Below, piece after piece: positions 27,664 through 54,965 of a DNA stretch of 64,000 bases. Made by a program: the position numbers and the translations under genes. Source of the DNA: Erodium maritimum (lineage: Eukaryota > Streptophyta > Magnoliopsida > Geraniales > Geraniaceae); NCBI GenBank assembly GCA_963921825.1, contig OY997592.1, positions 32,467,730-32,531,729 on the forward strand, given 5' to 3'. Position 1 is the first letter of the stretch. Every line of letters begins with the position of its first letter. The notes beneath the pieces were generated by a model, which was not told the origin of the DNA, did no database searches, and was given only the letters and a program-made list of their open reading frames with translations.

Positions 27664-27675
27664 TGGTATCAGAGC
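27664..27675 (+). promoter_or_regulatory. Primer binding site of gypsy B
   Basis: TGGTATCAGAGC lies one base after the LTR end TTAACA and is complementary to the 3' end of initiator Met tRNA. Confidence 0.92.
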
Positions 27676-29870: not shown

Positions 29871-31530
29871 TGTTAGTCTTAGTGCCCGTAGTTCAATCAT
29901 AAATGTCCAAATGTATATATCATTGTTAGCAATAAAATTAAAGCGGCTTTATATTACTTATGTGTTGGAGTAATATATCGATGTGTGCTCTGATCTATGC
30001 CCACCATGTGAATAGAACCATAGATCGAGATAGATCACACTCGATGGGTCCCTAGTCAACAAAGCTTACCTAGAAGCGAATAGTATGAAAGATGGCTCTT
30101 TATGGCTTACGTTCTGTTAGTCATTGGAATGGGATTCCGGAGTCTGATCATAGATATCATGTGGGACATGATATTGGACGACCCGACATGAATATGTGCA
30201 ATAGATCAAGTCATGAACATATTCATTGTCGTAGCTTGTCATGTATCCTTAGACCAAAGAGTCTTTGTGATCGCTATGTAGTCAACAACTGAATTTGACC
30301 TGAGCCTAACGTTGTCCATAACAGGGCTTCCATAACGGCCAGGATTGGCTTGGGGACGGGCTAGATGAGTGACACGAAAGACGGCTAAGGGATTTATCCC
30401 TCATACTAAGGTATGAGAAAGATATCGGTTCTCGGTCGCTTGATCAAGAGTGACTAAAAGAATAGCATGGCCATGCGCATGATACTGGGCATCATATATT
30501 CAGTCATCTCACATATCAAGGAACAATGATTGAGAATAATAAGGATGACGGCTCTATGCCTTATCTCAATCAGGATATCGGAGATTAAAGGATAATGGCA
30601 GGGACGACGGAAAGGTTATAATCCACAGGGTCGATTCGTTATGCAGTGTCAGGCAATACTAAAGTCTCGTTAGTTGCCACTTAAATAGGATCAAGTAAAA
30701 TGGGATTTTACGTTGATCTTGACAAGCATAAACCTAAGGGTCACACCGGAGGATGAAACTCATTGACACATTTATGGAGAATGTCCAAAAGGGAGTTGTC
30801 TCGGGACATGACCAAAACTTGGTTTTGTGTCATGTGCCCGTAAGTGAATAGGACTTTACGGATCGAGACAAGGCTTGGAGTCTTGGGATTGATCGCGTCG
30901 GATAATATTGGACATTTCCGGTATGGAAGGCATGGAGGCGATGAGCGAATCACGGGACCTCGTTGGAAATGGCCATGGGCCATGTTCCAAGAGGCCCATG
31001 GAACTAATTAATCAAGTCTTGATTAATTAGTACTAAGTAAGCAAGACAAGGATTAAGGTGTTGGTGATTAACCACCTAACCCAATCTTGTCTTGCCATAC
31101 TTTGTCCTATTTACACCTTACTTGACACCATACTTGTCCCATGCCTTTAGTTGGACAAGTATGGGTTTTGTTATGTTTAAGTCATCTTTTTTCAACATAA
31201 CAAACACAAAACAAGAATAGGAAACACAACTTCTCCCTCCTCTCCATGGCAATTTCGGGTTTGGCTAGTTGCCACCTCCATTTTTGTGTTCTTGAGTCCT
31301 CAAAGAGAAGAACTACGTGACTTTGATTCCCATGTGGATACGTAGGCGTCTTGGAGACTCAAGCCAATCATTTGTTAACCGGTGTTCTTGTTTTGGTGAG
31401 AAATAGTGCTGAATTTTTCTATTGTGAATCCATTCTTTGTTAATTGTTTCATGGTTTTAACCATCTCTTGGTTTTCCTTGATTTTCCTTTGCGAGTTGGT
31501 TCATCTCCAACCCTACCTCGAGACCCAACA
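29871..31530 (+). repeat. Copia LTR1 (5' LTR of first copy), 1,660 bp
   Basis: It starts TGTTAGTCTTAGTGCCCG and ends CTCGAGACCCAACA, directly followed by a primer binding site. Related LTRs are at 36387, 39876, 46648, 51587 and 51952. LTR1 lacks a 26-bp block (GGCCCATGCAACCAA region) that the copies at 39876, 46648, 51587 and 51952 carry, which defines a short-LTR subfamily. The left flank is ACAAT. Confidence 0.93.
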
Positions 31531-31531
31531 G

Positions 31532-31543
31532 TGGTATCAGAGC
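31532..31543 (+). promoter_or_regulatory. Primer binding site of copia copy 1
   Basis: TGGTATCAGAGC lies one base inside LTR1 and is complementary to initiator Met tRNA. Confidence 0.92.
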
Positions 31544-33072
31544 CATGCTACCTTCTGGATTCACAAGACGGTGTTCAAAGTTTTGGTTTTGCTTGAAAGT
31601 TTCGTTTTTGGCGTGTTGTTTTGCTAAATTGTTTGATAACATGTTTTAAATTCTTGTTATGGATTTAATGCATGTAAAATGAATTTTTGAAAATTATTTC
31701 AAATCTGGAAATTTTGAAAAAAATTAGATTTTTCGGGTCTCGGGAGTGAGACTCTCGGGGAGCCGAAACCGGGACCGAACATGGCTCCGTTGGACGGAGC
31801 TATGCCGAGCATGACCACTGGATGGTTGATATGCCAAGGCTAAACCGTTTTGTTAGTTATGACGAGTTTGGAACCGTCATGACGAACTCGAAGATCAAAT
31901 ATTCAAAAGTTTCATTTTTGAACGGTTTCGATAAACCGAGTATCAAAATTTTTCGAAACTTGGCAATTAATTAAAATCGGAAAATCACATGATGTTTGAT
32001 AACATGCTTTTTTGATAACACGATGTGTGATGTGATGTTTGCATGGTGTACATAATAGCCCCGAGCTCGATTTAATTATTTATCGCTTTTCACGGTCTGT
32101 GAGCCGTTAGAGTTAGCTTGTAATTATTCTTTCAAGGTGTGGTCGTCGAACCACTTGTTTGTAATATTTATTTATACCCGAACTGCGAGTCGTGTATTAA
32201 ATTGTAAATTTTTACTCAAGACGAAGAAAGGGCGAAAAGGTCATTTGGTTGCTTTTCGGGTGTTGGCATCGGCTTGGAGTCGGTGGAGCTCAAGAAGCTA
32301 GTGGGAGTTAGTTTAGGGGGCTATTATGTGCATATATATCGTTTTATGCTTAATTTAGTTTATGCATGATTAATTCTATGTGTTTTAGAATTGCATGCTT
32401 AACTTTATTTACCGAGCATATCACCTCACATGCAAAGATAAAATTGGAATTTTAATCCTTGTGTGTGAGCCCTTAGAATCGTCATTACATTGGATGTAGT
32501 TGACGGGTTCGAAGGAAGAATTACATTAGATGTAATTTGAGGCATCATTGCATTTGGAATGTAGTTGATTTGCTCATCGCATCTAGGATGTGTCTAAGTT
32601 TTAAACACAACCGGACAAGTAAAATCGGGTCATGTCCGATACCTCCCAATTATCAATACCTTACTACCTCCCCGTCCCATGGGTGTTGTGCGCATTAGCG
32701 GAGCATCCATGGGAAAGCGGGGTAGTAGGTTTGGACGACATATGTGGGTGTCCTGGTATCTACATAGTGACGGGCCATAGTTGAAAATTGGTGGACTCGA
32801 CTACGATTCTCAGCCTGAGGTTGAGCAAGGGTAACAGATAGGGTAAGCTGTGTACATAAGTGCATACCCTCGCCAAGAGTCACATTGGATGTGATTGGAT
32901 GGAGTCCTACCTACATAGCTCGATTAAGTGGTGAGCATTAGTTCAGCTTAATCGAGTGAATTAAGGATCTTGGTTTCAGATTCTAAAGGTTTAGAATCGA
33001 TTGTTGGTGTTTAAGCTTGATCTTCATAAATTTATTCAGTTTACTGATTGAATTTTATCTGTTGTAGATCAA
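31544..33072 (+). other. Copia copy 1 leader (1.5 kb, non-coding)
   Basis: A long leader between primer site and gag ATG. It ends with a pyrimidine tract and GTTGTAG just before ATCAAATGG, a plausible 3' splice site, so the leader may hold an intron. It lacks a duplicated GTGCGCATTAGCGGAGCA block that copies 2 and 3 carry in the same place. No gene seen. Confidence 0.6.
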
Positions 33073-33700
33073 ATGGCAAATTCAGCGAACATTAATAGTT
33101 TGTCACTAAAAACCATTCTTGACAGGGTCAAGCTAAATGGGACAAACTATTTAGACTGGTACAGAATTTTGAGGATAGTCCTTAAGTCTGAACGCAAAGA
33201 ATATGTCCTTGACAAGGCAGTCTCTAAGACCATATCAGAGTTACATGAAGTGTCAATAACTGCTGAGAAGAATATATCAGGGATCTGGGATCCAAGGATA
33301 TTTTGATGGTAAATAAGGGAATTGGAAGTGACAAGGGCGGGGCCCATGCACACTTGGCAGGAAAGATGAGACACTTGAGAATGTCTGCTTCTACTGCCAA
33401 CAGCCTGGTCATTGGAACCGGGATTACAGGAAGTTCACGGCTGATCTGAAGAAGGGCAGTGAGACTGCGCCTTCATCAAATAGCCTGGATGATCTGAAGA
33501 AGGGCAGTAGGAGTACGCCTTCATCAGGAAACCTGGATGATCTAAGGAAGGGCGGTGGGACCGTGCCTTCATTCGGTATTAACTCTATAGAGCTACATCT
33601 CTCTACTTCCAAAGATTCATGGGTATTAGATACCAGGACTGAATCTCACACATGCACTAATATGTAGTGGCTGAAAGTAGGAGAGGATTGGAAAGCACGA
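33073..33700 (+). pseudogene. Copia copy 1 gag and protease, internally deleted
   Basis: It starts MANSANINSLSLKTILDRV and reaches the gag start motif KLNGTNYLDWYRILRIVLKS. It then jumps at about 33215-33235 from YVLDKAV to SKTISELHEV, skipping the whole capsid core that is present in the related gag at 14561-15190. A frame change follows at about 33300. The zinc knuckle (about 33386-33430) reads CFYCQQPGHWNRDY, with Tyr for the last Cys. A linker of three 16-residue repeats (about 33442-33585) precedes VLDTRTESHTCT, where the protease DTG triad reads DTR. Gag and protease functions are therefore both lost. Confidence 0.9.
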
Positions 33701-34980
33701 AGTGGACCTCAGAGTTATGGCAACTGCTGTAGGATCCATGAGTCTTGCTTTGCCAAGTGGCCTTGTCTTACTATTGTATAATGTATATTGCATACCTACT
33801 TTTAGTAGGAATATTATATCTGTATCCGTGTTTGACAAGGAAGGATATAATGTTAATATTGGAAATGGAGTTTTCAATGTTCTATGCAATGATATGTTCT
33901 ATACCGGTACTGACTTGGTTGGAGGATTGTACATATTAGATATGGGTAACAATGCCTCAAGTTCTATATATTACGTTAATACCAAGAGATCTAAATCAAA
34001 CGATTTAAACCTAACTCTGTTATGGCACTATCATTGGGGCCGCATAAACAAGAAGCGCCTATCAGCACTTCAGAAGTGCGGACTTTCAGGTTCGTTCGAA
34101 TTCCATTCGATCGATAGGTGCAAGGTTTGTTGGATGGGAGAAATGACTAAAGTGCCCTTTATCGATCGCGATGAAAGGGCGGGTGAATTATTGGGGCTGA
34201 TACACTTGAATGTGTGTAGACCAATAAGTTCACTTGCCAGGAGTGGTTTTAGCTACTTTATCACATTTACTGATGATTACAGTAAATATGGTTATGTCTA
34301 TTCGGTGAGACATAAGTCTGAAGCTTTTGATAAATTCAAAGAGTTTAAGACTAAAGTAGAAAACCAGCTCGACAAAGGTATTAAGGCACTTCGATTGGAT
34401 CGAGGTGGAAAATACTTGACCACAGAGTTATTAGATCATCTAAAAGAGAATGGGATCCTTTTGGAATGGACTCCTCCTGGGACATTGTAGTTAAAAGGTG
34501 TAGCCAAACGGAGAAATCGGACATTGTTAGACAATGGTCCGTTCCATGATTAGTTGGACTGATCTCCCAATCTCTTTCAGGGGTTATGCTCTAGAGACGA
34601 CCGCATTCATAGTGAATCGGGCTTCGACGAAGGGTGTTGAAGGGACACCATTTTAAAAATGGTACGGGATGATGCCTGCTTTGTCCTTCCTAAAGATTTG
34701 TGGTTGCGAGGCTTATGTGAAACATTTGGTTTCGACTAAGCTCGAACCAAGATCTTAGATATGCACCTTCGTGTGGTATCTCAAAGGAACAAGGGGATAC
34801 TACTTCTACAATCCCAGTGAGAACATGGTGTTCGTCGGTTGGGGTGGGGTGTTTATGGAAAAGGAGTTTTGTTTCCAAAGACGTCATTGGGAGGACTGTG
34901 CATCTCGAAGAAATTCAGGATGGTACAGATTTGTCTAAACCAATTGACAACCCAGTAGAAAGGAGCCAAAGATTGTCGTA
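33701..34980 (+). pseudogene. Copia copy 1 integrase
   Basis: 33702-34490 holds YCIPTFSRNIISVSVFD and the zinc-binding region, in which the expected H-LGH reads HYHWGRINKKR. The core follows: IHLNVCRP (catalytic Asp replaced by Asn), YFITFTDDYSKYGYVY and ALRLDRGGKYLTTELLDHL (second Asp kept). After a TAG at 34488 the reading goes on as GVAKRRNRT, with Lys in place of the catalytic Glu. The remainder to about 34980 is readable only with frame changes (FLKICGCEAYVKH at 34688). It is inactive. Confidence 0.88.
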
Positions 34981-35026
34981 GAGTAAAAACCAATTCCTGT
35001 TACAATTTCGGAAGGTCCAAGGCAAT

Positions 35027-36010
35027 TTGAAAGCATCAATCTTCCACCTCCAAGATATGGTATCCGGAGGTGACAATGAAGTCATGGTGGACCACGATGA
35101 TCCAGCCACCTTTCAGGAAGTCGTGGATGGACCCGACTCCGAGTTATGGCTGGGAGCCATGAGGGAGGAAATGCAATCCATGTCGGACAACCGAGTCTGG
35201 GAATCGGTTGATCCCATCAATGGTGTGAGGACCATTGAATGCAAATGGATCTTCAAGGTGAAGATGGACATGGAAGGCAACCCTCTGACCTACAAAGCTC
35301 AACTGGTGGGGAAAGGTTATAGGCAGATCCAATGGATTGACTATGAGGAAACCTTCTCCCTAGTGGCTACGGTCAAAATCGATCCAAATTCTTCTTGACA
35401 TAAATGTGTATCATAATTACGAGATATGGCAAGTGGATGTCAAAACCGCTTTCCTAAATGAAAATTTGACTGAGTACGTTTGTATGTCTCTGTCCAAAGG
35501 TTTTGACAATCCAAAGAATAAGGGAAAGATTTATAAGTTGTTGAAATCCATTTATGGATTGAAACGAACTTCTCGGAGTTGGATCCTTCGTTTTGATGAA
35601 ACTGTAATTGGATTTGACTTAATCAAGAACGAGGATGAATCTTGCATTTATAAGAAGGCTAGTGGGAGCAAGATTACCTTTCTGATTCTCATTGAAAACG
35701 ACATCCCAACCTTGCACGAGACTAAAGCTTGGTTGAGGAAGTGATTTTCAATAAAGGACTTAGGCGATGCTTCTTATATCTTAAGGATTAAGATATGTAG
35801 AGATCGCACCAAGAGGGTCTTGGATTTAAGTCAGGGAACCTATGTGAACAAGTCATTGAGTAGGTTCTTAATTCTCAATTCAAAGAAAGGACTCTTACCC
35901 ACTAGTCATGGCATTTGTCTCAGCAAGACTCGGTGTCCTAAGACACCTGATGAGCTGAAAAGGATGATGAGAATCCTATTCGCCTGGGGGCAGGATCGAT
36001 CATATATGAC
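35027..36010 (+). pseudogene. Copia copy 1 reverse transcriptase, YVDD box deleted
   Basis: The RT start is recognised by WLGAMREEMQSMSDN, CKWIFKVKMD and YKAQLVGKGYRQIQWIDYEETFS. A one-base insertion at about 35375 shifts the frame (VKIDPNSS-stop). The other frame continues EIWQVDVKTAFLNENLTE (motif A Asp kept) and KLLKSIYGLKRTSRSW. At 35681-35700 the text runs FLILIENDIPTL, where a copia RT has the YVDD catalytic box between these blocks. About six codons are missing in frame. The C-terminal part LGDASYILRIKICRDRTKRVLDLSQ-TYV and a stop at 35742 follow. Confidence 0.92.
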
Positions 36011-36386
36011 ATGACATGTATGAGACCGGACGTCTCGTAAGCCTTATGTTGTACCAGTAGACATCAGTCAAACCCGGGGAAAGATGATGCTGAACTAGTC
36101 GTCGAAGGATGAGTAGACGCTAGTTTTCCAAGACAAATCCAGATGACTTTAGAAGTCAGTCAGGATATGTGTTTATGTTGAATGGTAGAGCTTTAGCTGG
36201 GAGAGCGTAAAGCAAGATAACATTGCTGAATCTACAACAGAGGCCAAGTACATGGGTGCTGTAGAGGCAGCTAAGGAGGCTATGTGGATTTGGAAATTCA
36301 CGGCAGGGTTGGGTGTAATTAAAAACCCATGTAAAGTCAATGGGGACATATTAGAGTTTAGATTGGAACTAGGGTAAGTGGGAGAT
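36011..36386 (+). pseudogene. Copia copy 1 RNase H remnant
   Basis: TEAKYMGAVEAAKEAMWIWKF at about 36239-36305 is the RNase H segment. At about 36330 the sequence jumps from AAAACCCAT to GTAAAGTCAATGG. Compared with copy 2 (51308 to 51530) this is a deletion of about 210 bp with CAT microhomology. The polypurine tract GTAAGTGGGAGAT precedes LTR2. Confidence 0.82.
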
Positions 36387-38035
36387 TGTCAGTCTTAGTG
36401 CCCGTAGTTCAATCCTAAATGTCCAAATGTATATATCATCGTTAGTAATAAAATTAAAGCGGCTTTATATTACTTATGTGTTGGAGTAATATCTCGAAGT
36501 GTGCTCTGATATATGCCCACCATGCGAATAGAACCATAGATCGAGATAGATCACACTCGATGGGTCCCTAATCAACAAAGCTTCACTAGAAGCGACTAGT
36601 ATGAAAGATGGCTCTTTATGGCCTACGTTCTGTTAGTCATTGGAATGGGATTCCGGAGTCTGATCATAGATATCATGTGGTACATGATATTGGATGACCC
36701 GACATGAATATGTGCTATAGATCAAGTCATGAACATATTCATTGTCGTAGCTTGCCATGTATCCTTAGACCAAAGAGTTTTTGTGATCGCTATGTAGTCA
36801 ACAAGTGAGTTTGACCTGAGTCTAACGTTGTTCGTAACAGGGCTTCCATAACGGCCAGGATTGGGTTGGGGACGGGCTACATGAGTGACACGAAAGACGG
36901 CTAAGGGATTTATCCCTCATACTAAGGTATGAGAAAGATATCAGTTCTCGGCCGCTTGATCGAGAGTGACTGAAAGAATAGCATGGCCATGCACATGATA
37001 CTGGGTAGTCATCTCACATATCAAGGAACAATGATTGAGAAAAATAAGGATGACGGCTCTATGCCTTATCTCAATCAGGATATCGGAGTAAAAGGATAAT
37101 GACAGGGATGACGGAAAGGTTATAATCGACAGGGTCGATTCGTTATGCAGTGTCAGGCAATACTAAAGTCTCGTTAGTTGCCACTTAAATAGGATCAAAT
37201 AAAATGGGATTTTACGTTGATCTATTGACATGCATAAACCTAAGGGTCACACTGGAGGATGAAACTCATTGACACATTTATGGAGAATGGCCAAAAGGGA
37301 GTTGTCTCGGGACATGACCAAAACTGGGTTTTGGGTCATGTGCCCGTAAGTGAATAGGACTTTACGGATCGAGACAAGGCTTGGAGTCTTGGGATTGATC
37401 GCGTCGGATAATATTGGACATTTCCGGTATGGAAGGCATGGAGGCGATGAGCGAATCACGGGACCTCGTTGGAAATGGCCATGGGCCATGTTCCAAGAGG
37501 CCCATGGAACTAATTAATCAAGTCTTGATTAATTAGTACTAAGTAAGCAAGACAAGGATTAAGGTGTTGGTGATTAACCACCTAACCCAATCTTGTCTTG
37601 CCATACTTTGTCCTATTTACACCTTACTTGACACCATACTTGTCCCATGCCTTTAGTTGGACAAGTATGGGTTTTGTTATGTTTAAGTCATCTTTTTTCA
37701 ACATAACAAACACTAGACAAGAATAGGAAACACAACTTCTCTCCCCCTTCCCTTGCAATTTCGGGTTTGGCAAGTTCCCACCTCCATTTTTGTGTTCTTG
37801 AGTCCTCAAAGAGAAGAACTACGTGGCTTTGGTTCCCATGTGGATACGTAGGCGTCTTGGAGACTCAAGCCAATCATCCGTTAACCGGTGTTCTTGTTTT
37901 GGTAAGAAATAGTGCTGAATTTTTCTCTTGTGAATCCATTCTTTGTTAGTTGTTTCACGGTTTAATCGTCTCTTGGTTTTCATTGATTTTCCGCTGCGAG
38001 TTGGTTCATCTCGAACCATACCTCGAGACCCAACA
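36387..38035 (+). repeat. Copia LTR2, middle LTR, chimeric (1,649 bp)
   Basis: It starts TGTCAGTCTTAGTG after a polypurine tract (so it is a 3' LTR of copy 1) and ends GACCCAACA followed by a primer site (so it is also a 5' LTR of copy 2). Left of 37576 it carries LTR1 variants (GATAATATTGG, TATGCAGTG, no 26-bp block, GATTAACC). Right of 37714 it carries LTR5 variants (CACTAGACAAG, TTGGCAAGTTCCC, ATCATCCGTTAACC, AACCATACC). It is a recombinant between two LTRs. Confidence 0.92.
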
Positions 38036-38036
38036 G

Positions 38037-38048
38037 TGGTATCAGAGC
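38037..38048 (+). promoter_or_regulatory. Primer binding site of copia copy 2
   Basis: TGGTATCAGAGC lies one base after LTR2. Confidence 0.92.
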
Positions 38049-39592
38049 TGTGCTACCTTCGGGATTCACAAGACGGTGTTCAAAGTTTCGGTTTTGCTTG
38101 AAAGTTTCGTTTTTGGCATGTTGTTTTGCTAAATTGTTTGATAACATGTTTTAAATTCTTGTTTATGGATTTAATGCATGTAAAATGAATTTTTGAAAAT
38201 TATTTCAAATCTGGAAATTTTGAAATTTTTTTTGATTTTTCGGGTCTCGGGAGCGGGACTCTCGGGGAGCCGAAACCGGGACCGAACGGGGCTCCGTTGG
38301 ACGGAGCTAGGCCAAGCATGACCATTGGATGGTTGATATGCCAAGGCTAAACCGTTTTGTTAGTTATGACGAGTTTGGAACCGTCATGACGAACTCGAAG
38401 ATCAAATGTTCAAAAGTTTCATTTTTGAACGGTTTCGATAAACCGAGCATCAAAAAATTTCGAAACTTGGCTATTAATTAAAACCGGAAAATCACATTAT
38501 GTTTGATAACATGCTTGTTTGATAACACGATGTGTGATGTGATGTTGGCATGGTGTACATAATAGCCCCGAGCTCGATTTAATTATTTATCGCTTTTCAC
38601 GGCCTGCGAGCCGTTAGAGTTAGCGTGTAATTATTCTTTCAAGGTGTGGTCGTCGAACCACTTGTTTGTAATATTTATTTATTCCCGACCTGTGAGTCGT
38701 GTATTAAATTGTAATATTTTACTCAAGACGAAGAAAGGGCGAAAAGGTCATTTGGTGGCTTTTCGGGTGTTGGCATCGGCTTGGAGTCGGTGGAGCTCAA
38801 GAAGCTAGTGGGAGTTAGTTTAGGGGGCTATTATGTGCACATTTATCGCTTTATGCTTGGTTTAGTTTATGCATGATTAATTCTATGTGTTTTAGAATTG
38901 CATGCTTAACTTTATTTACCGAGCATATCACCTCACATGCAAAGATAAAATTGGAATTTTAATCCTTGTGTGTGAGCCCTTAGAATCGTCATTACATTGG
39001 ATGTAGTTGACGGGTTCGAAGGAAGAATTACATTGGATGTAATTTGAGGCATCATTGCATTTGGAATGTAGTTGATGTGCTCATCGCATCTAGGATGTGT
39101 CAAAGTTTTAAACACAACCGGACAAGTAAAAGCGGGTCATGTCCGATACCTCCCAATTATCAACACCTTACTACCTCTCCGTCCTATGGGTGTCGTGCGC
39201 ATTAGCGGAGCATCCATGGGAAAGCGGGGTAGTAGGTTTGGACGACATATGTGGGTGTCGTGCGCATTAGCGGAGCACCTACATAGTGACGGGCCATAGT
39301 TGAAAATTGGTGGACCCGACTACGATTCTCAGCCTGAGGTTGAGCTAGGGTAACAGATAGAGTAAGCCGTGTACATAAGTACATACCCTAGCCAAGAGTC
39401 ACATTGGATGTGATTGGATGGAGTCCTACCTACATAGCTCGATTAAGTGGTGAGCATTAGTTCAGCTTAATCGAGTGAATCAAGGATCTTGGTTTCAGAT
39501 TCTAAAGGTTTAGAATCGATTGTTGGTGTTTAAGCTTGATCTTCATAAAATTTATTCAGTTTACTGATTGAATTTTATCTATTGTAGATCAA
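38049..39592 (+). other. Copia copy 2 leader, non-coding
   Basis: Homologous to 31544-33072, but carrying the direct repeat GTGTCGTGCGCATTAGCGGA at about 39190 and 39257 that is shared with copy 3 and absent from copy 1. No gene seen. Confidence 0.6.
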
Positions 39593-39875
39593 ATGGCAAA
39601 TTCAGCGAACATTAATAGTTTGTCATTAAAAACCATTCTTGACAGGGTCAAGCTAAATGGGACAAACTATTTGGACTAGTACAGAATTTTGAGGATAGTC
39701 CACAAGTATGAACGCAAAGAATATGTCCTTGACACGACTGTCTCTAAGACCATATCAGAGTTACATGAAGTGTCATTAATTGCTGAGAAGAATATATCAG
39801 GGATCTGGGATCCAAGGATATTCTGATGGTCAACAAGGGAATTGGAAGTGGCAAGGGCGGGGCCCATGCGCACTT
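39593..39875 (+). pseudogene. Copia copy 2 gag, 5' part
   Basis: It starts ATGGCAAATTCAGCG at 39593 with the same N-terminus as copy 1. It has a stop at LD-stop-YRILRIV (Trp lost) and the same gag-core deletion junction at about 39733-39755. Copy 3 inserted at 39875/39876. The gag resumes at 48336 and duplicates the last five bases, CACTT. Confidence 0.9.
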
Positions 39876-41563: not shown

Positions 41564-41575
41564 ATCTCCCACTTG

Positions 41576-42180
41576 CCCTAGTTCCAATCTAAACTCCAAT
41601 ATGTCCCCATCGACTTTACATGTCTAACATGTTCAGGCAGCGACACTGCCTTAGTCAAAGGGTTGGCTATGTTATCATCTGTTGCAATATAGGTTATCTT
41701 CACTTCACCTCAGTTCAGTATTTATCTGATGAGGTGGATACGCCGCAGTACATGTTTGGATTTGTTATACGATCTAGGCTTTTAGCTTGCGCAATGGCCC
41801 TTGTGTTGTCGCAAGATGGATTCACGGGGCTGGATGGGTTTTTGATTACACCCAGCCCTGCCATGAATTTCCAAATCCACATAGCCTCCTTAGCTGCCTC
41901 TGCAGCATCCATGTACTTGGCCTCTGTCGTAGATTCGGCAATGGTATCTTGCTTTACGCTCTCCCAGCTAAAGCTCTGCCATTCAGCGTAAACACATATC
42001 CTGACTGACTTTTAAAGTCATCTGGATTTGTCCTTGAAAACTAGCGTCTACTCATCCTTCGACGACTAGTTCAGCATCATCTTTCCCCCGGGTTAGAATG
42101 ATGTCTACTGGTACAACATAAGGCTTACGAGACGTCCGGTCTCATACATGTCATGGCATAGATGATCAATCCTGCCCCTA
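41576..42180 (-). pseudogene. Copia copy 3 RNase H
   Basis: On the minus strand MDAAEAAKEAMWIWKFMAG, CDNTRAIAQAKSLDRITNP and PNMYCGVSTSS (about 41715-41912) are the copia RNase H segment, with Glu and Asp positions visible. Unlike copy 1, the 210-bp region is present. Multiple frame changes occur between here and RT (42001-42180). Confidence 0.82.
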
Positions 42181-44470: not shown

Positions 44471-45091
44471 TTCCAAACCTCTCCTACTTTTAGCCACCAT
44501 TTTTAAGTGCATGTGTGAGATTCAGTCCTGGTATCTAATACCCATGAATCTTTGGAAGTAGAGAGATGTAGCTCTATAGAGTTAATACCGGATGAAGGCA
44601 CGGTCCCACCGCCCTTCCTTAGATCATCCAGGTTTCCTGATGAAGGCGCAGTCCTACTGCCCTTCTTCAGATCATCCAGGCTATTTGATGAAGGCGCAGT
44701 CCCACTGCCCTTCTTCAGATCAGCCGTGAACTTCATGTAATCCCGGTTCCAATGACCAGGCTGTTGGCAGTAGAAGCAGACATTCTTAGGTGTCTCATCT
44801 TTCCTGCCAAGTGCGCATGGGCCCCGCCCTTGCCACTTCCAATTACCTTGTTGATCATCAGAATATCCTTGGATCCCAGATCCCTGATATATTCTTCTCA
44901 GCAATTAATGACACTTCATGTAACTCTGATATGGTCTTAGAGACAGCCTTGTCAAGGACATATTCTTTGCGTTCAGACTTGAGGACTATCCTCAAAATTC
45001 TGTACCAGTCCAACTAGTTTGTCCCATTTAGCTTGACCCTGTCAAGAATGGTTTTTAATGACAAACTATTAATATTCGCTGAATTTATCAT
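44471..45091 (-). pseudogene. Copia copy 3 gag and protease, internally deleted
   Basis: The ATG is at 45089-45091 (MINSANINSLSLKTI). A stop replaces the residue after NGTN. The gag-core deletion junction lies at about 44930-44955. After a frame change, 44503-44904 reads through the zinc knuckle CFYCQQPGHWNRDY, the three 16-residue linker repeats (DLKKGSGTAPSSNSLD type) and VLDTRTESHTCT. The lesions are identical to copies 1 and 2. Confidence 0.9.
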
Positions 45092-46634
45092 TTGATCTAC
45101 AACAGATAAAATTCAATCAGTAAACTGAATAAATTTTATGAAGATCAAGCTTAAACACCAACAATCGATTCTAAACCTTTAGAATTTGAAACCAAGATCC
45201 TTGATTCACTCGATTAAGCTGAACTAATGCTCACCACTTAATCGAGCTATGTAGGTAGGACTCCATCCAATCACATCCAATGTGACTCTTGGCTAGGGTA
45301 TGTACTTATGTACACGACTTACCCTATCTGTTACCCTAGCTCAACCTCAGGCTGAGAATCGTAGTCGGGTCCACCAATTTTCAACAATGGCCCGTCACTA
45401 TGTAGGTGCTCCGCTAATGCGCACGACACCCACATATGTCGTCCAAACCTACTACCCCGCTTCCCCATGGATGCTCCGCTAATGCGCACGACACCCATAG
45501 GACGGGGAGGTAGTAAGGTGTTGATGATTGGGAGGTATCGGACATGACCCGCTTTTACTTGTCCAGTTGTGTTCAAAACTTTGGCACATCCTAGATGCGA
45601 TGAGCACATCAACTACATTCCAAATGCAATGATGCCTCAAATTACATCCAATGTAATTCTTCCTTTGAACCCATCAACTACATCCAATGCAATGACGGTT
45701 CTAAGGGTTCACACACAAGGATTAAAATTCCAATTTTATCTTTGCATGTGAGGTGATATGCTCGGTAAATAAAGTTAAGCATGCAATTCTAAAACACATA
45801 GAATTAATCATGCATACACTAAACCAAGCATAAAGCGATAAATGTGCACATAATAGCCACCTAAACTAACTCCCACTAGCTTCTTGAGCTCCACCGACTC
45901 CAAGCCGATGCCAACACCCGAAAAGCCACCAAATGACCTTTTCGCCCTTTCTTCGTCTTGAGTAAAATATTACAATTTAATACACGACTCGCAGGTCGGG
46001 AATAAATAAATATTACAAACAAGTGGTTCGACGACCACACCTTGAAAGAATAATTACACGCTAACACTAACGGCTCGCAGGCCGTGAAAAGCGATAAATA
46101 ATTAAATCGAGCTCGGGGCTATTATATACACCATGCCAACATCACATCACACATCGTGTTATCAAACAAGCATGTTATCAAACATCATGTGATTTTCCGG
46201 TTTTAATTAATAGCCAAGTTTCGAAAATTTTTGATGCTCGGTTTATCGAAACCGTTCAAAAATGAAACTTTTGAACATTTGATCTTCGAGTTCGTCATGA
46301 CGGTACCAAACTCGTCATAACTAACAAAACGGTTTAGCCTTGGCATATCAACCATCCAATGGTCATGCTTGGCCTAGCTCCGTCCAACGGAGCCCCGTTC
46401 GGTCCCGGTTTCGGCTCCCCGAGAGTCCCGCTCCCGAGACCCGAAAAATCAAATTTTTTTCAAAATTTCCAGATTTGAAATAATTTTCAAAATTTCATTA
46501 TACATGCATTAAATCCATAAACAAGAATTTAAAACATGTTATCAAACAATTTAGCAAAACAACATGCCAAAAACGAAACTTTCAAGCAAAACTGAAACTT
46601 TGAACACCGTCTTGTGAATCCCAAAGGTAGCACG
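45092..46634 (-). other. Copia copy 3 leader, non-coding
   Basis: Homologous to 38049-39592 in inverted orientation, including the duplicated AATGCGCACGACACCCA block (about 45416 and 45481). No gene seen. Confidence 0.6.
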
Positions 46635-46646
46635 GCTCTGATACCA
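46635..46646 (-). promoter_or_regulatory. Primer binding site of copia copy 3
   Basis: The minus strand reads TGGTATCAGAGC, one base inside the LTR that starts at 46648. Confidence 0.92.
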
Positions 46647-46647
46647 C

Positions 46648-48335
46648 TGTTGGGTCTCGAGGTAGGGTTGGAGATGAACCAACTCGCAGCGGAAAATCAA
46701 GGAAAACCAAGAGACGATTAAAACCATGAAACAACTAACAAAGAATGGATTCACAAGAGAAAAATTCAGCACTAGTTCTTACCAAAACAAGAACACCGGG
46801 TAACGAATGATTGGCTTGAGTCTCCAAGACGCCTACGTATCCACATGGGAATCAAAGCCACGTAGTTCTTCTCTTTGAGGACTCAAGAACACAAAAATGG
46901 AGGTGGGAGCTTGCCAAACCCGAAATTGCAAGGGAAGGGAGAGAGAAGTTGTGTTTCCTATTCTTGTCTTGTGTTTGTTATGTTGAAAAAAGATGACTTA
47001 AACATAACAAAACCCATACTTGTCCAACTAAAGGCATGGGACAAGTATGGTGTCAAGTAAGGTGTAAATAGGACAAAGTATGGCAAGACAAGATTGGGTT
47101 AGGTGGTGAATCACCAACACCTTAATCCTTGTCTTGCTTACTTAGTACTAATTAATCAAGACTTGATTAATTAGTTCCATGGGCCTTGGTTGCATGGGCC
47201 TTTCATGGGCCTCTTGGAACATGGCCCGTGGCCATTTCCAACGAGGTCCCGTGATTCGCTCATCGCCTCCAAGCCTTCCATACTGGAAATGTCCAACATT
47301 ATCCGACGCGATCAATCCCAAGACTCCAAGCCTTGTCTTGATCCGTAAAGTCCTATTCACTTACGGGCACATGACCCAAAACCCAGTTTTGGTCATGTCC
47401 CGAGACAACTCCCTTTTGGCCATTCTCCATAAATGTGTCAATGAGTTTCATCCTCCGGTGTGACCCTTAGGTTTATGCATGTCAATAGATCAACGTAAAA
47501 TCCCATTTTACTTGATCCTATTTAAGTGGCAACTAACGAGACTTTAGTATTGCCCGACATTAGATAACGAATCGACCCTATCGATTCTAACCTTTCCGTC
47601 GTCCCTGTCATTATCCTTTTATCTCCGATATCCTGATTGAGATAAGGCATAGAGCTGTCATCCTTATTATTCTCAATCAATGTTCCTTGATATGTGAGAT
47701 GACTAAAGATATGATACCTAGTATCATGTGCATGGCCATGCTATTCTTTCAGTCACTCTCGATCAAGCGGCCGAGAACCGATATCTTTCTCATACCTCAG
47801 TATGAGGGATAAATCCCTTAGCCGTCTTTCGTGTCACTCATGTAGCCAATCCCCAAGCCAATCCTGGCCGTTATGGAAGCCCTGTTACGGACAACGTTAG
47901 GCTCAGGTCAAACTCAGTTGTTGACTACATAGCGATCACAAAGACTCCTTGGTCTAAGGATACATGACAAGCTACGACACTGAATATGTTCATGACTTAA
48001 TCTATGGCACATATTCAGGGCGGGTCGTCCAATATCATGTCCCACATGATATCTATGATCAGACTCCGGAATCCCATTCCAATGACTAACAGAACGTAAG
48101 CCATAAAGAGCCATCTTTCATACTAGTCGGTTCTAGTGAAGCTTTGTTGACTAGGGACCCATCGAGTGTGATCTATCTCGATCTATGGTTCTATTCGCAT
48201 GGTGGGCATAGATCAGAGCACACATCGATATATTACTCCAACACATAAGTAATATAAAGGCGCTTTAATTTTATTGCTAACGATGATATATACATTTGGA
48301 CATTTAGGATTGAACTACGGGCACTAAGACTAACA
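46648..48335 (-). repeat. Copia LTR4 (5' LTR of copy 3)
   Basis: 1,688 bp, the same length as LTR3, from TGTTGGGTCTCG to AGACTAACA. Differences from LTR3 include ATACTGG/ATACCGG, AAAGGCGC/AAAGCCGC and TAGCCAATCC/TAGCCCGTCC. Confidence 0.95.
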
Positions 48336-48685
48336 CACTTGGCAGGAAAGATGAGACACATGAGAATGTCTGCTTCTACTGCCAATAGCCTGGTCATTGG
48401 AACCGGGATTATAGGAAGTTCACGGCTGATCTGAAGAAGGGCAGTGGGACTGCGCCTTCATCAAATAACGTGGATGATCTGAAGAAGGGCAGTAGGACTG
48501 CGCCTTCATCAGGAAACCTGGATGATCTAAGGAAGGGCGGTGGGACCGTGCCTTCATCCGGTATTAACTCTATAGAGCTACATCTCTCTACTTCCAAAGA
48601 TTCATGGGTATTAGATACCAGGACTGAATCTCACACATGCACTTATATATGGTGGCTGAAAGTAGGAGAGGTTTGGAAAGCACGA
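48336..48685 (+). pseudogene. Copia copy 2 gag 3' part and protease
   Basis: This resumes the gag interrupted at 39875. The zinc knuckle again ends in Tyr instead of Cys (GHWNRDY), with a TAG inside (CFYCQ-stop-PGHW). The three 16-residue repeats occupy about 48428-48575. VLDTRTESHTCT at about 48606-48645 has DTR instead of the protease DTG. Confidence 0.88.
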
Positions 48686-49990
48686 AGTGGACCTCAGAGT
48701 TGTGGCAACTGCTGTAGGATCCATGAGTCTTGCTTTGCCAAGAGGCCTTGTCTTAGTACTGTATAATGTATATTGCATACCTACTTTTAGTAGGAATATT
48801 ATATCTGTATCCGTGTTTGACAAGGAAGGATATAATGTTAATATTGGAAATGGAGTTTTCAATGTTCTATGCAATGATATGTTTTATACCAGTACTGACT
48901 TGGTTGGAGGATTGTACATATTAGATATGGGTAACAATGCCTCAAGTTCTATATATTCCGTTAATACCAAGAGGTCTAAATCCAACGATTTAAACCTAAC
49001 TCTGTTATGGCACTGTCATTTATGTCGCATAAACAAGAAGCACCTATCAGCACTTCAAAAGTGCGGACTTTCAGGTTCATTCGAATTCCATTCGATCGAT
49101 AGGTGCAAGGTTTGTTTGATGGCCAAAATGACTAAAGTGCCCTTTTATCGATCGCGATGAAAGGGCGGGTGAATTATTGGGGCTGATACACTCGAATGTG
49201 TGTAGACCAATAACTTCACTTGCCAGGAGGGGTTTTAGCTACTTTATCACATTTACTGATGATTACAGTAAATATGGTTATGTCTATTCGCTGAGACATA
49301 AGTCTGAATCTTTTGATAAATTCAAAGAGTTTAAGATTAAAGTAGAAAACCAGTTGGACAAAGGTATTAAGGCACTTCGATTGGATCGAGGTGGAAAATA
49401 CTTGACCACAGAGTTATTAGATCATCTAAAAGAGAATGGGATCCTTTTGGAATGGACTCCTCTTGGGACACTGTAGATGAAAGGTGTAGCCAAACGGAGA
49501 AATCGGACATTATTAGACAATGGTCCGTTCCATTATTAGTTGGACTGATCTCCCAATCTCTTTCTGGGATTATGCTCTAGAGACGACCGCATTCATAGTG
49601 AATCGGGCTTCGACGAAGGGTGTGGAAGGGACACCATTTTAAAATGATATGGGATGATGCCCGCTTTGTCCTTCCTAAAGATTTGTGGTTGCGAGGCTTA
49701 TGTGAAACATTTGGTTTCGACTAAGCTCGAACCAAGATCTGAGATATGCACCTTCGTGTGGTATCCCAAAGCAACAAGGGGATACTACTTCTACAATCCC
49801 AGTGAGAACATGGTGTTCGTCGCATGGGGTGGGGTCTTAATGGAAAAGAAGTTTTGTTTCCAAAGACGTCATTGGAAGGACTGTGCATCTCGAAGAAATT
49901 CAGGATGGTACAGATCTGTCTAAACCAATTGACAACCCAGTAGAAAGGAGGCAGAGATTGTCGTAGAGTGAGAACCAATTCCTGTTACAA
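48686..49990 (+). pseudogene. Copia copy 2 integrase
   Basis: 48687-49160 holds the zinc-binding region (WHCHLCRINKKHL, CKVCLMAKMTK). A one-base insertion at about 49145 shifts the frame. 49177-49476 holds IHSNVCRPI (Asp to Asn), FTDDYSKYGYVY and RLDRGGKYL. GVAKRRNRT at about 49480-49505 has Lys for the catalytic Glu. 49654-49923 is the downstream FLKICGCEAYVKH segment. Confidence 0.88.
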
Positions 49991-50985
49991 TTCCGGAAGG
50001 TCCAAGGCGATTTGAAAGGGTCAATCTTCCACCTCCAAGATATGGTATCCGGAGGTGACAATGAAGTCATGGTGGATCACGATGATCCAGCCACCTTTCA
50101 AGAGTTTGTGGATGGGCCCGACTCCGAGTTATGGCTGGGAGCCATGAGGGAGGAAATGCAATCCATGTCGGACAACCGATTCTGGGAACCGGTTGATCCC
50201 ATCAATGGTTTTAGGACCATCGGATGCAAATGGATCTTCAAGGTGAAGATGGACATGGATGACATCCCTCTGACCTACAAAGCTCAACTGGTGGCGAAAG
50301 GTTATAGGCAGATCCAATGGATTGACTATGAGGAAACCTTCTCCCTAGTGGCTATGGTCAAAATCGATCCAAATTCTTCTTGACATAACTGCGTATCATA
50401 ATTACGAGATATGGCAAGTGGATGTCAAAACCGCTTTCCTAAATGGAAATTTGACTGAATACGTTTGTATGTCTCGGCCCAAAGGTTTTGATGATCCGAA
50501 GAATAAGGGAAAGATTTATAAGTTGTTGAAATCCATTTATGGATTGGAACGAACTTCTCGGAATTGGATCCTTCGTTTTGATGAAGCTGTAATTGGATTT
50601 GGCTTAATCAAGAACGAGGATGAATCTTGCGTTTATAAGAAGGCTAGTGGGAGCAAGATTACCTTTCTGGTTCTCATTGAAAACGACATCCCAACCTTGC
50701 ACGAGACTAAAGCTTGGTTGAGGAAGTGTTTTTCAACAAAGGACTTAGGCGATGCTTCTTATATCTTAAGGATTAAGATATGTAGAGATCGCACCAAGAG
50801 GGTCTTGGATTTAAGTCAGGGAACCTATGTGAACAAGGCATTGAGTAGGTTCTTAGTGCTCGATTCAAAGAAAGGACTCTTACCCACTAGTCATGGCATT
50901 CATCTCAGCAAGACTCAGTGTTCTGAGACACCTGATGAGCTGAAAAGGATGATAAGAATCCCATGTACCTAGGGGCAGGATCGAT
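49991..50985 (+). pseudogene. Copia copy 2 reverse transcriptase, YVDD box deleted
   Basis: 50012-50383 covers the N-terminal RT blocks (WLGAMREEMQSMSDN, YKAQLVAKGYRQIQ) up to the shared frameshift VKIDPNSS-stop. 50418-50972 is one open frame: VKTAFLNGNLTEYVCMSRP, KSIYGLERTSRNW, FLVLIENDIPTL (YVDD box missing, about 50666-50690), KDLGDASYILRIKICRDRTKR and SQGTYVNKALSRFL. This is the longest intact stretch of the family here. Confidence 0.93.
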
Positions 50986-51586
50986 CATAAATGCCATGAC
51001 ATGTACGAGACCGGACGTTTCGTAAGCTTTATGTTGTACCAGTAGACATCAGTCTAACCCGAGGGAAAGATGATGCTGAACTAGTCGTCGAAGGATGAGT
51101 AGACGCTAGTTTTCCAAGACAAATCCAGATGAGTTTAGAAGTCAATCAGGATATGTGTTTACGCTGAAGGGTAGAGCTTTAGCTGGGAGAGCGTAAAGCA
51201 AGATACCACTGCCGAATCTACGACAGAGGCCAAGTACATGGATGCTGCAGAGGCAGCTAAGGAGGCTATATGGATTTGGAAATTCACGGCAGGGTTGGGT
51301 GTAATCAAAAACCCATCCAGCCCGGTGAATCCATTTTGCGACAATACAAGGGCCATTGCACAAGCTAAAAGCCCAGATCGCATAACAAATCCAAACATGT
51401 ATTGCGGCGTATCCACCTCATCAGAGAAATACTGAACTGAGGTGAAGTGAAGATAACCTATATTGCAACAGATGATAACATAGCCAACCCTTTGACTAAG
51501 ACAGTGTCGCTGCCTGAACATGTTAGACATGTAAAGTCAATGGGGACATATTGGAGTTTAGATTGGAACTAGGGCAAGTGGGAGAT
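50986..51586 (+). pseudogene. Copia copy 2 RNase H and polypurine tract
   Basis: TEAKYMDAAEAAKEAIWIWKF, CDNTRAIAQAKSPDRITNP and the following copia C-terminal region are readable with frame changes. GCAAGTGGGAGAT at 51574-51586 is the polypurine tract adjoining LTR5. Confidence 0.85.
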
Positions 51587-54500
51587 TGTTAGTCTTAGTG
51601 CCCGTAGTTCAATCCTAAATGTCCAAATGCATATATCATCGTTAGCAATAAAATTAAAGCGGCTTTATATTAATTATGTGTTGGAGTAATATATCGATGT
51701 GTGCTCTGATCTATGCCCACCATGCGAATAGAACCATAGATCGAGATAGATCACACTCGATGGGTCCCTAGTCAACAAAGCTTCACTAGAAGCGACTAGT
51801 ATGAAAGATGGCTCTTTATGGCTTACGTTCTGTTAGTCCTTGGAATGAGATTCCGGAGTCTGATCATAGATATCATGTGGGACATGATATTGGACGACCC
51901 GCCCTGAATATGTGCCATAGATTAAGTCATGAACATATTCAGTGTTGTAGCTGTTAGTCTTAGTGCCCGTAGTTCAATCCTAAATGTCCAAATGTATATA
52001 TCATCGTTAGCAATAAAATTAAAGCGGCTTTATATTACTTATGTGTTGGAGTAATATATCGATGTGTGCTCTGATCTATGCCCACCATGCGAATAGAACC
52101 ATAGATCGAGATAGATCACACTCGATGGGTCCCTAGTCAACAAAGCTTCACTAGAAGCGACTAGTATGAAAGATGGCTCTTTATGGCTTACGTTCTGTTA
52201 GTCATTGGAATGGGATTCCGGAGTCTGATCATAGATATCATGTGGGACATGATATTGGACGACCCGCCCTGAATATGTGCCATAGATTAAGTCATGAACA
52301 TATTCAGTGTTGTAGCTTGTCATGTATCCTTAGACCAAGGAGTCTTTGTGATCGCTATGTAGTCAACAACTGAGTTTGACCTGAGCCTAACGTTGTCCGT
52401 AACAGGGCTTCCATAACGGCCAGGATTGGCTTGGGGATGGGCTACATGAGTGACACGAAAGACGGCTAAGGGATTTATCCCTCATACTAAGGTATGGGAA
52501 AGATATCGGTTCTCGGCCGCTTGATCGAGAGTGACTGGAAGAATAGCATGGCCATGCACATGATACTGGGTATCATATCTTCAGTCATCTCACATATCAA
52601 GGAACGGTGATTGAGAATAATAAGGATGACGGCTCTATGCCTTATCTCAATCAGGATATCGGAGATAAAAGGATAATGACAGGGACGACGGAAAGGTTAG
52701 AATCGACAGGGTCGATTCGTTATGTAGTGTCAGGCAATACTAAAGTCTCGTTAGTTGCCACTTAAATAGGATCAAGTAAAATGGGATTTTACGTTGATCT
52801 ATTGACATGCATAAACCTAAGGGTCACACCGGAGGATGAAACTCATTGACACATTTATGGAGAATGGCCAAAAGGGAGTTGTCTCGGGACATGACCAAAA
52901 CTGGGTTTTGGGTCATGTGCCCGTAAGTGAATAGGACTTTACGGATCGAGACAAGGCTTGGAGTCTTGGGATTGATCGCGTCGGATAATGTTGGACATTT
53001 CCGGTATGGAAGGCATGGAGGCGATGAGCGAATCACGGGACCTCGTTGGAAATGGTCACGGGCCATGTTCCAAGAGGCCCATGAAAGGCCCATGCAACCA
53101 AGGCCCATGGAACTAATTAATCAAGTCTTGATTAATTAGTACTAAGTAAGCAAGACAAGGATTAAGGTGTTGGTGATTCACCACCTAACCCAATCTTGTC
53201 TTGCCATACTTTGTCCTATTCACACCTTACTTGACACCATACTTGTCCCATGCCTTTAGTTGGACAAGTATGGGTTTTGTTATGTTTAAGTCATCTTTTT
53301 TCAACATAACAAACACAAGACAAGAATAGGAAACACATTTTCTCTCCCTCTTCCATGGCCATTTCGGGTTTGGCTAGTTTCCACCTCCATGTTTGTGTTC
53401 TTGAGTCCTCAAAGAGAAGAACTACGTGGCTTTGATTCCCATGTGGATACGTAGGCGTCTTGGAGACTCAAGCCAATCATTCGTTAACCGGTGTTCTTGT
53501 TTTGGTAAGAACTAGTGCTGAATTTTTCTCTTGTTAATCCATTCTTTGTTAGTTGTTTCATGGTTCTAATTGTCTCTTGGTTTTCATTGATTTTCCGCTG
53601 CGAGTTGGTTCATCTCCAACCCTACCTCGAGACCCAACAGTAGCTTGTCATGTATCCTTAGACCAAGGAGTCTTTGTGATCGCTATGTAGTCAACAACTG
53701 AGTTTGACCTGAGCCTAACGTTGTCCGTAACAGGGCTTCCATAACGGCCAGGATTGGCTTAGGGACGGGCTACATGAGTGACACGAAAGGCGGCTAAGGG
53801 ATTTATCCCTCATACTGAGGTATGGAAAGATATCGGTTCTCGGCCGCTTGATCGAGAGTGACTGAAAGAATAGCATGGCCATGCACATGATACTGGGTAT
53901 CATATCTTCAGTCATCTCACATATCAAGGAACGATGATTGAGAATAATAAGGATGACAGCTCTATGCCTTATCTCAATCAGGATATCGGAGATAAAAGGA
54001 TAATGACAGGGACGACGGAAAGGTTAGAATCGACAGGGTCGATTCGTTATGTAGTGTCAGGCAATACTAAAGTCTCGTTAGTTGCCACTTAAATAGGATC
54101 AAGTAAAATGGGATTTTACGTTGATCTATTGACATGCATAAACCTAAGGGTCACACCAGAGGATGAAACTCATTGACACATTTATGGAGAATGGCCAAAA
54201 GGGAGTTGTCTCGGGACATGACCAAAACTGGGTTTTGGGTCATGTGCCCGTAAGTGAATAGGACTTTACGGATCGAGACAAGGCTTGGAGTCTTGGGATT
54301 GATCGCGTCGGATAATGTTGGACATTTCCGGTATGGAAGGCATGGAGGCGATGAGCGAATCACGGGACCTCGTTGGAAATGGCCATGGGCCATGTTCCAA
54401 GAGGCCCATGAAAGGCCCATGCAACCAAGGCCCATGGAACTAATTAATCAAGTCTTGATTAATTAGTACTAAGTAAGCAAGACAAGGATTAAGGTGTTGG

Positions 54501-54965
54501 TGATTCACCACCTAACCCAATCTTGTCTTGCCATACTTTGTCCTATTTACACCTTACTTGACACCATACTTGTCCCATGCCTTTAGTTGGACAAGTATGG
54601 GTTTTGTTATGTTTAAGTCATCTTTTTTCAACATAACAAACACTAGACAAGAATAGGAAACACAACTTCTCTCCCCCTTCCCTTGCAATTTCGGGTTTGG
54701 CAAGTTCCCACCTCCATTTTTGTGTTCTTGAGTCCTCAAAGAGAAGAACTATGTGGCTTTGATTCCCATGTGGATACGTAGGCGTCTTGGAGACTCAAGC
54801 CAATCATCCGTTAACCGGTGTTCTTATTTTGGTAAGAAATAGTGCTGAATTTTTCTCTTGTGAATCCATTCTTTGTTAGTTGTTTCACGGTTTAATCGTC
54901 TCTTGGTTTTCATTGATTTTCCGCTGCGAGTTGGTTCATCTCCAACCATACCTCGAGACCCAACA
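51587..54965 (+). repeat. Copia LTR5 (3' LTR of copy 2), split by a solo LTR
   Basis: The first part 51587-51951 and second part 53645-54965 form one 1,686-bp LTR of the long subfamily, ending GACCCAACA. It is interrupted by the solo LTR at 51952-53639. The right flank GCTAT differs from the left flank of LTR1 (ACAAT), so LTR1 and LTR5 do not bound one insertion. Confidence 0.92.
51952..53639 (+). mobile_element. Solo copia LTR6 (1,688 bp) with TSD GTAGC
   Basis: It runs from TGTTAGTCTTAG to GACCCAACA and is flanked by GTAGC at 51947-51951 and 53640-53644. No primer site or internal region accompanies it. It inserted into LTR5 of the same family and then lost its interior by LTR-LTR recombination. 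Its sequence is long-subfamily. Confidence 0.95.

Follow-up and report, generated by a model that had tools for sequence, protein, structure and literature searches.

A 64,000-nucleotide stretch of the Erodium maritimum genome (C5:32467730-32531729 in a 763-Mb assembly of 40 contigs, hereafter the window) carries four insertions of one Ty1/copia retrotransposon family whose gag and pol genes are wrecked, yet whose copies appear to have gone on inserting until very recently. We consider it likely that this family, called the dead family below, has been mobilised in trans and that it swapped cis-acting blocks with an intact partner family in the same genome. The first-pass annotation of the window had put forward a dead family with competent long terminal repeats (LTRs), mobilised in trans by an autonomous element, and this proposal is supported by the shared death of the copies, their continued insertion and the presence of the partner. 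What that annotation missed is the exchange of LTR and leader sequence between the families, and the long time that the dead family has spent without coding constraint.

The four insertions are three elements with internal regions, designated X, Y and M, and a solo LTR. X and Y form a compound (29871-54965; plus-strand order LTR1, internal X, LTR2, internal Y, LTR3) that splits a Ty3/gypsy element, and M is inserted in Y. The parts are as follows, with RT standing for reverse transcriptase and TSD for target-site duplication:

27263-57540, plus strand: host Ty3/gypsy element, with LTRs at 27263-27662 and 57145-57540 (92% direct repeat)
29871-31530, plus strand: LTR1, the 5' LTR of X
31531-36386, plus strand: internal region of X, with primer site at 31532, leader to 33072 and gag ATG at 33073
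33088-33280, plus strand: gag remnant of X with the core deletion (from translation and comparison with relatives)
33383-33650, plus strand: degenerate zinc knuckle and protease of X, flanking a 48-nt tandem repeat
33702-34490, plus strand: degenerate integrase frame of X (His to Arg, Asp to Asn; Glu to Lys past the stop)
35027-35744, plus strand: degenerate RT of X in two frames, with the YVDD box lost at 35691
36387-38035, plus strand: LTR2, chimeric, its 5' part derived from the 3' LTR of X and its 3' part from the 5' LTR of Y
38036-39875, plus strand: internal region of Y, part one (leader and gag start)
39871-39875, no strand: left TSD CACTT of M, the other copy being at 48336-48340
39876-48335, minus strand: M, a complete nested element of 8,460 nt with TSD CACTT
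48336-51586, plus strand: internal region of Y, part two (zinc knuckle to polypurine tract)
51587-51951, plus strand: LTR3 of Y, part one
51952-53639, plus strand: solo LTR of the same family inside LTR3, with TSD GTAGC at 51947-51951 and 53640-53644
53645-54965, plus strand: LTR3 of Y, part two

M consists of a 5' LTR (46648-48335), an internal region (41564-46647) and a 3' LTR (39876-41563), and the first 5 nt of the second internal part of Y are the second copy of its TSD. The internal region of X holds the degenerate gag-pol and a polypurine tract; its gag-deletion junction recurs at ~39608-39800 in Y and ~45076-44888 in M, and the integrase domains and the alignment of the catalytic Asp were demonstrated on the equivalent frame of M. 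The LTRs (1.65-1.69 kb, followed by a leader of ~1.5 kb) start with TG and finish with CA and the TSDs are 5 nt long, which together with the gene order protease, integrase, RT, RNase H and a copia-type RT (RVT_2) places the family in Ty1/copia. In the window copies the Pfam domains gag_pre-integrs and RVT_2 scored above cutoff and rve under its curated cutoff, with protease and RNase H assigned by motif. The 12-nt primer site at the LTR end, TGGTATCAGAGC, is identical in X, Y and M and presumably fits initiator tRNA-Met. The intact LTR ends and primer site described in the first-pass annotation hold, whereas its start of the internal region at 33073 proved to be the gag ATG, the region beginning at 31531 with the 1.5-kb leader; the two TSDs it called perfect, CACTT of M and GTAGC, are both exact, although GTAGC belongs to the solo LTR and not to a full element. 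Rfam at gathering scores returned nothing in the window DNA, an IMG/VR scan no relative, and a PDB search with the RT piece nothing useful.

In X, Y and M alike, the gag core is gone (YVLDKAV joined to SKTISEL), the last Cys of the zinc knuckle (CCHC) is replaced by Tyr, the protease DTG reads DTR, the second His of the integrase zinc motif is Arg, the first catalytic Asp of the integrase is Asn (aligned to the integrase of PDB 7z0h, which we take to be that of Ty1), the catalytic Glu is Lys with an in-frame stop just upstream, and the RT YVDD box is absent, with 21 nt missing relative to the partner. That the three copies share their lesions had been read from the letters, and it is borne out by translation, comparison with database relatives and frame tracking. 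Seven frame changes are common to the copies (the first is legible in X and M only, the insertion of M interrupting it in Y) and four are private (two in Y, one each in M and X); the one-base RT frameshift recorded earlier is present, although merely as one of the seven. X additionally lacks 214 nt of the RNase H end. Six dead copies were compared with the partner piece in the mosaic locus L010 (see below); in addition to the 21 nt missing at YVDD, all of them have lost 77 nt in RNase H and a single nucleotide at each of three places, and have gained 2 nt at one. Database searches gave 774 integrase and 815 RT matches, of which the best 120 each were listed, and 85 for the first RT piece; among the matches listed, the highest identities are 61% for integrase and 71% for RT, with 75% along a single short stretch, and YVDD is intact in 108 of the 120 RT relatives. 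Over 248 conserved integrase and RT columns, 198 are kept, up to 40 are changed alike (an upper figure, with columns lacking a residue in the other copy's frame counted as alike) and 10 are changed differently. The 48-nt tandem repeat that separates zinc knuckle from protease (33442-33572, 44586-44722 and 48427-48558) looks specific to the dead family: the aligned database relatives lack ~30 residues there, and in two partner copies the distance from knuckle to protease is 96 nt less.

The same set of lesions was found across the assembly, where the first-pass annotation had proposed to look for it. Using X 33073-34000 as a query, which spans the gag deletion, the first look gave 3,671 candidates (a figure that is no copy number), and the best 40 places, one of them the window itself, scored 97-100% over all 928 nt on contigs C1 to C6 and C8. 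Twenty of the 39 places outside the window were fetched and, with the truncated L009 and the mosaic L010 left out, these yielded 18 full-length copies on six contigs. Every one of the 18 has the knuckle Tyr, the integrase His to Arg, first Asp to Asn and Glu to Lys changes, and no insertion at the gag junction or the YVDD site; the protease Gly is replaced throughout (by Arg in 7, by Met in 11), and an in-frame integrase stop is present in 17. Together with the frame changes common to X, Y and M, this shows that gag-pol must have been wrecked before these copies spread, as had been claimed, and rules out that the lesions arose independently in each copy. The 16 measurable LTR pairs differ at 0 sites in six copies, at 1-2 in another six and at 6, 8, 15 and 29 in the remainder, and since 12 of 16 thus have two differences or fewer, the dead family has, by this measure, moved very recently. 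Exact TSDs flank 12 of the 18 copies (including L021, once its altered LTR end was read by eye), among them three of the six with identical LTRs. Sub-lineages marked by Met for Gly, a 7-nt deletion or an altered primer site continued to spread. In one of these, comprising L021 and L027, the primer site is ATGGCATCAGAGCC and the LTR pairs differ at 15 and 6 sites, respectively. In L015, identical LTRs (0 of 1688 differences) stand between unmatched flanks (ATTAT / ATGCC).

These copies, unable to encode the machinery, sharing the defect by descent and recently inserted, are non-autonomous elements. LARD and TRIM elements (large retrotransposon derivatives and terminal-repeat retrotransposons in miniature) have an internal region without gag-pol sequence, which sets them apart from the present family with its retained gag-pol remnant of ~3.3 kb; a Gag parasite of the BARE2 type does not describe it either, pol being broken besides gag.

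The predicted autonomous copia with matching LTR ends, primer site and leader, and with intact gag, DTG and YVDD, was also found. An entry to it was L010, in the 3' part of which an open RT-RNase H frame containing YVDD is followed by an LTR of the dead-family type; as a whole (L010:58-8309) this locus is made up of a dead-family 5' part, an LTR piece and a partner 3' part with LTR. A 1,325-nt query from L010 gave 3,912 first-look candidates, the best 40 of which, L010 included, scored at 99-100%. In eight partner loci the frame is open over 936 codons to the 5' edge of the fetched piece in four and over 386-862 codons in the other four. The upstream part was fetched for two copies, and both have one frame of 1,341 codons from ATG to a stop after RNase H:

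C6:27143092-27147117: open frame of the first partner copy
C3:51875634-51879659: open frame of the second partner copy

Both frames keep CCHC, DTG, GHIN, HSDVC, RSDRGGE, NGVSERRN and YVDD, and the gag core is present. Figures for a further locus, L030, were discarded at this point, its sequence having been aligned on the wrong strand. The first and last bases of the partner LTR and the primer site match those of the dead family, and the two LTR pairs differ at 2 and 0 of 1,500 sites compared, which would make the partner copies as young as the dead ones. An intact partner with matching cis signals thus exists, and its LTR pairs suggest that it was active at the same time. Some other element could mobilise the dead family, the relative found here being merely a cousin, and cross-family help has indeed been discussed for Arabidopsis ATCOPIA57 (in PMC8704663) and for barley Sabrina/WHAM (in PMC9744471). 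The found relative is, however, equally young, and it was the only one met here, in work that included no systematic helper search, to agree with the dead family in ends, primer site, leader and the greater part of the LTR; we therefore regard a different helper as unlikely.

The distance between the dead and partner families varies in blocks. With seven dead copies compared against one partner copy, the mean difference is 4.4% over LTR 1-1200 and 23% over LTR 1201-1688, 8% over the first 110 nt past the LTR and 5.5% over the rest of the leader, and 12% and 14% over the gag start and from zinc knuckle to RT, respectively; pairwise differences within the dead family over the same six blocks, in this order, are 2.7, 3.6, 2.6, 3.0, 1.7 and 3.0%. 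The ratio of segregating to fixed sites is 219 to 72 in the two close blocks against 227 to 335 in the LTR 3' part, the gag start and the knuckle-RT block (p = 1e-22), and among noncoding blocks alone it is 122 to 42 in the leader against 40 to 87 in LTR 1201-1688 (p = 2e-13). Because the close blocks are as diverse within the dead family as the others, they appear to have been exchanged between the families, in either direction, rather than to constitute a slowly evolving cis region under constraint. Moreover, divergence in the close blocks is only ~1.6-1.8 times the dead-family diversity, which would date the exchange to not long before the radiation of the sampled copies.

Purifying selection on cis signals is the alternative to exchange, inasmuch as promoter and packaging sequences need recognition by the partner machinery; consistent with it, Y and M are closer to each other in the leader than in the former coding region (p = 0.014). 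This difference is not clear over X, Y and M together (80 of 1524 leader sites against 208 of 3278 former coding sites, p = 0.15), the close blocks with their 2.7% and 3.0% diversity lie within the 1.7-3.6% seen overall, and the edge at LTR 1200 is abrupt, a step from ~4% up to ~22% in each of the seven dead copies, including X. We accordingly judge selection an improbable reason for the closeness, and exchange the better account.

No coding constraint was detected among the window copies: in 871 codons, 137 private changes include 43 synonymous ones against 36.0 expected (P = 0.096) and 7 that make stops against 7.6 expected, the expectation being obtained by redistributing the changes with the same base and context. 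The changes are biased by context, C to T affecting 12-13% of CG and CHG sites against 4.5% of CHH sites and G to A 8-10% against 4.5%; such a CG/CHG bias is expected in methylated plant DNA. In RT-RNase H, the partner and six dead copies are separated by a dS (synonymous divergence) of 0.28-0.32 and a dN (nonsynonymous divergence) of 0.09-0.10, while four dead-dead pairs give dN/dS of 0.36-0.83. Assuming dN/dS of 0.1-0.2 on the partner branch and 0.5-0.8 on the dead branch, the latter would amount, very roughly, to ~0.06-0.16 substitutions per site, or ~5-12 million years (My) at 1.3e-8 per site and year, a rate used for LTR dating in PMC3701649.

Two apparent patterns were rejected. Strand-specific hypermutation seemed suggested by several G to A catalytic lesions and by 12 G>A and 2 C>T among 26 single-step changes inferred at conserved columns. 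Against it, the 122 fixed differences between the two families in RT-RNase H comprise 28 G>A and 16 C>T alongside 24 A>G and 16 T>C, and the private changes are balanced (61 C>T and 68 G>A of 288). A hot spot of differences at the 3' end of X and an initially significant leader effect were an alignment artefact from the 214-nt deletion of X.

It could be argued that the lesion-bearing copies are dead-on-arrival offspring of intact masters, each broken singly by RT errors and methylation decay, given that intact relatives are numerous and that the CG/CHG-biased C to T and G to A changes attest to real methylation-type decay. Single breakage would not produce gag-core and YVDD losses at identical positions in 18 of 18 copies, frame changes common to X, Y and M or a 77-nt RNase H deletion common to six dead copies, and the dead-intact dS of ~0.30 in RT is far above the differences inside either family, which leaves this scenario very improbable.

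The window also records how two copies came to be joined. The outer flanks of the X-Y compound are unequal (ACAAT / GCTAT), and X and Y lack a TSD because they belong to one LTR-internal-LTR-internal-LTR compound. The gypsy host has a 12-nt primer site at 27664, and a domain search placed its protease, RNase H and integrase on both sides of the compound, with the protease to the left and RNase H to the right. Its left flank stops at the RT start and its right flank begins in the last part of RT, going by what we take to be the gypsy RT landmarks; in the window's other gypsy the stretch between these landmarks is 609 nt, which by our subtraction puts the loss of RT core between 29870 and 54966 at ~570 nt. 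Among derived sites that LTR2 shares with just one neighbour, the nine common to LTR1 are all located to the left of the four common to LTR3. From the unequal flanks, the missing RT core and the chimeric LTR2 it follows that X and Y are separate insertions in the gypsy RT gene, ~570 nt apart, fused by LTR-LTR recombination with deletion of the intervening stretch. At the rate above, the LTR pair of M (15 differences in 1688 sites; Kimura two-parameter distance, K2P, 0.0089) dates to ~0.34 My, that of X (5' part; K2P 0.036) to ~1.4 My and that of Y (3' part; 4 differences in 323; K2P 0.0125) to ~0.5 My. Further such compounds are L019, L026 and L028, with flanking LTRs differing at 0-1 sites; a polypurine tract precedes the left LTR in L019 and L028, and a primer site and leader follow the right LTR in L026. 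The matches C5:21981017 and C5:21987790, spaced 6,773 nt, form another tandem compound.

Although unequal crossing over between the LTRs of one element can in general make such compounds, the idea that X, Y and M are local duplicates of one dead insertion, with shared lesions uninformative on mobility, deserves next to no credence: the exact TSDs of M (for which it is refuted) and of the solo LTR, together with the chimeric LTR2, rule out this outcome, which the first-pass annotation had named as fatal to its proposal, the flanks of X-Y differ and the gypsy RT core is missing, and the same lesions occur in 18 other copies. In a tree that includes copies from other contigs, X, Y and M form no clade of their own, in agreement with a non-local origin, although the relevant supports are weak (0.08-0.61).

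Under trans-mobilisation with exchange, dead-family transcripts would be packaged in partner Gag, and the packaged RNA reverse transcribed and integrated by partner enzymes; strand switching between co-packaged RNAs could have led to the replacement of LTR 1-1200 and the leader, and the radiation of the dead family would have begun at about the time of this exchange. A bolder version, for and against which we are evenly balanced, is that a family free of constraint for several My was revived by acquiring LTR 1-1200 and the leader of an active relative while retaining the LTR 3' end and the dead coding region that it already had. In that case the pattern would reveal which parts of the RNA suffice for trans-mobilisation in plants, and several dead lineages would since have become masters.

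Several points weigh against this account. The passage from leader to gag is gradual (~6, 10 and 14% in successive windows), which together with the weak tree supports reduced our confidence. One RT window differs by merely 8-10%, and single coding windows go down to 8%. The block comparison has a single partner copy, and its p-values treat sites as independent. Some weak residual constraint would be compatible with the slight synonymous excess (P = 0.096). Since the 18 copies come from the top matches to a deletion-spanning query, the sample favours lesion-bearing copies; of the six whose TSDs do not match, two show a short 5' LTR match, three belong to tandem compounds and L015 is unexplained. 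Finally, trans-mobilisation is inferred from DNA sequence.

The kind of system is already known, the present case is unusually clear, and we do not claim the block pattern as new to the literature. In the account of wheat RLC_Angela in PMC9744471, non-autonomous sub-populations with highly degenerate coding sequence have co-evolved for long with autonomous ones, and the LTR tree disagrees with that of the internal region. Like these, the dead family is a copia with many frameshifts and stops in its coding sequence and a long spread beside autonomous relatives (PMC9744471). Here, unlike there, the exchanged blocks are mapped (LTR 1-1200 and leader close, LTR 1201-1688 and coding region not). 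The RNA of BARE2 of barley, as described in PMC3735527, is packaged in BARE1 particles although its gag start codon is deleted; BARE2 resembles the dead family in being copia-like, with an untranslated leader, and in being unable to make Gag, and it has conserved dimerisation and packaging signals. In the dead family, by contrast, the damage extends to gag, protease, integrase, RT and RNase H. BARE2 is said to keep pol. For soybean, SNRE and SARE (Du et al. 2010) reportedly form, by the title, an autonomous-nonautonomous partnership with exchanged LTRs.

More distant parallels exist. Mouse VL30, in the description of PMC4859993, retains gag and pol remnants that are riddled with stops in every full-length copy and has identical-LTR copies with TSDs, its mobility being attributed to trans-complementation; it differs in being retrovirus-like and of vertebrates. 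In non-autonomous endogenous pararetroviruses of grasses, region-specific recombination, not selection, is reported to homogenise noncoding regulatory blocks (PMC5491270), a homogenisation between partners like that seen here, although these are not LTR retrotransposons. Tos17 of rice is likewise a copia that transposes though incomplete, but it is reported in PMC3977881 to miss gag only. LTR retrotransposon bursts are described as involving recombination, with young elements that may resurrect older relatives (PMC5668417). TARE1 of tomato was rejected as a precedent, being described as autonomous.

The dead family offers a clean natural test of which functions an LTR retrotransposon must supply itself and which it can take from others. 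Its coding region is dead and drifting, yet it has identical-LTR copies, and cis sequence seems sufficient given a partner; which parts matter, probably in expression and packaging, is indicated by the two exchanged blocks, and the occurrence of the partner in the same assembly makes the idea testable. Surveys that rely on an intact RT or gag could label such a family a relic despite very recent insertion.

Outside the compound, the window holds a C-rich tandem array at 17203-25000 (period ~1,975 nt, with 59-nt and 57-nt sub-repeats), a diverged copy of which lies at 6180-7331, and tandem repeats of 410 nt and 266 nt at 11151-12871. A minus-strand gypsy at 467-3064 has integrase, RNase H, RT and protease-like stretches, named by eye, in separate open frames. 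Weak copia-like matches at 8895-9479 and 14829-14605 (24-33% identity) probably belong to another family. A tRNA-Ala prediction at 5937-6016 on the minus strand borders a segment that recurs near 16.3 kb, and it may be spurious.

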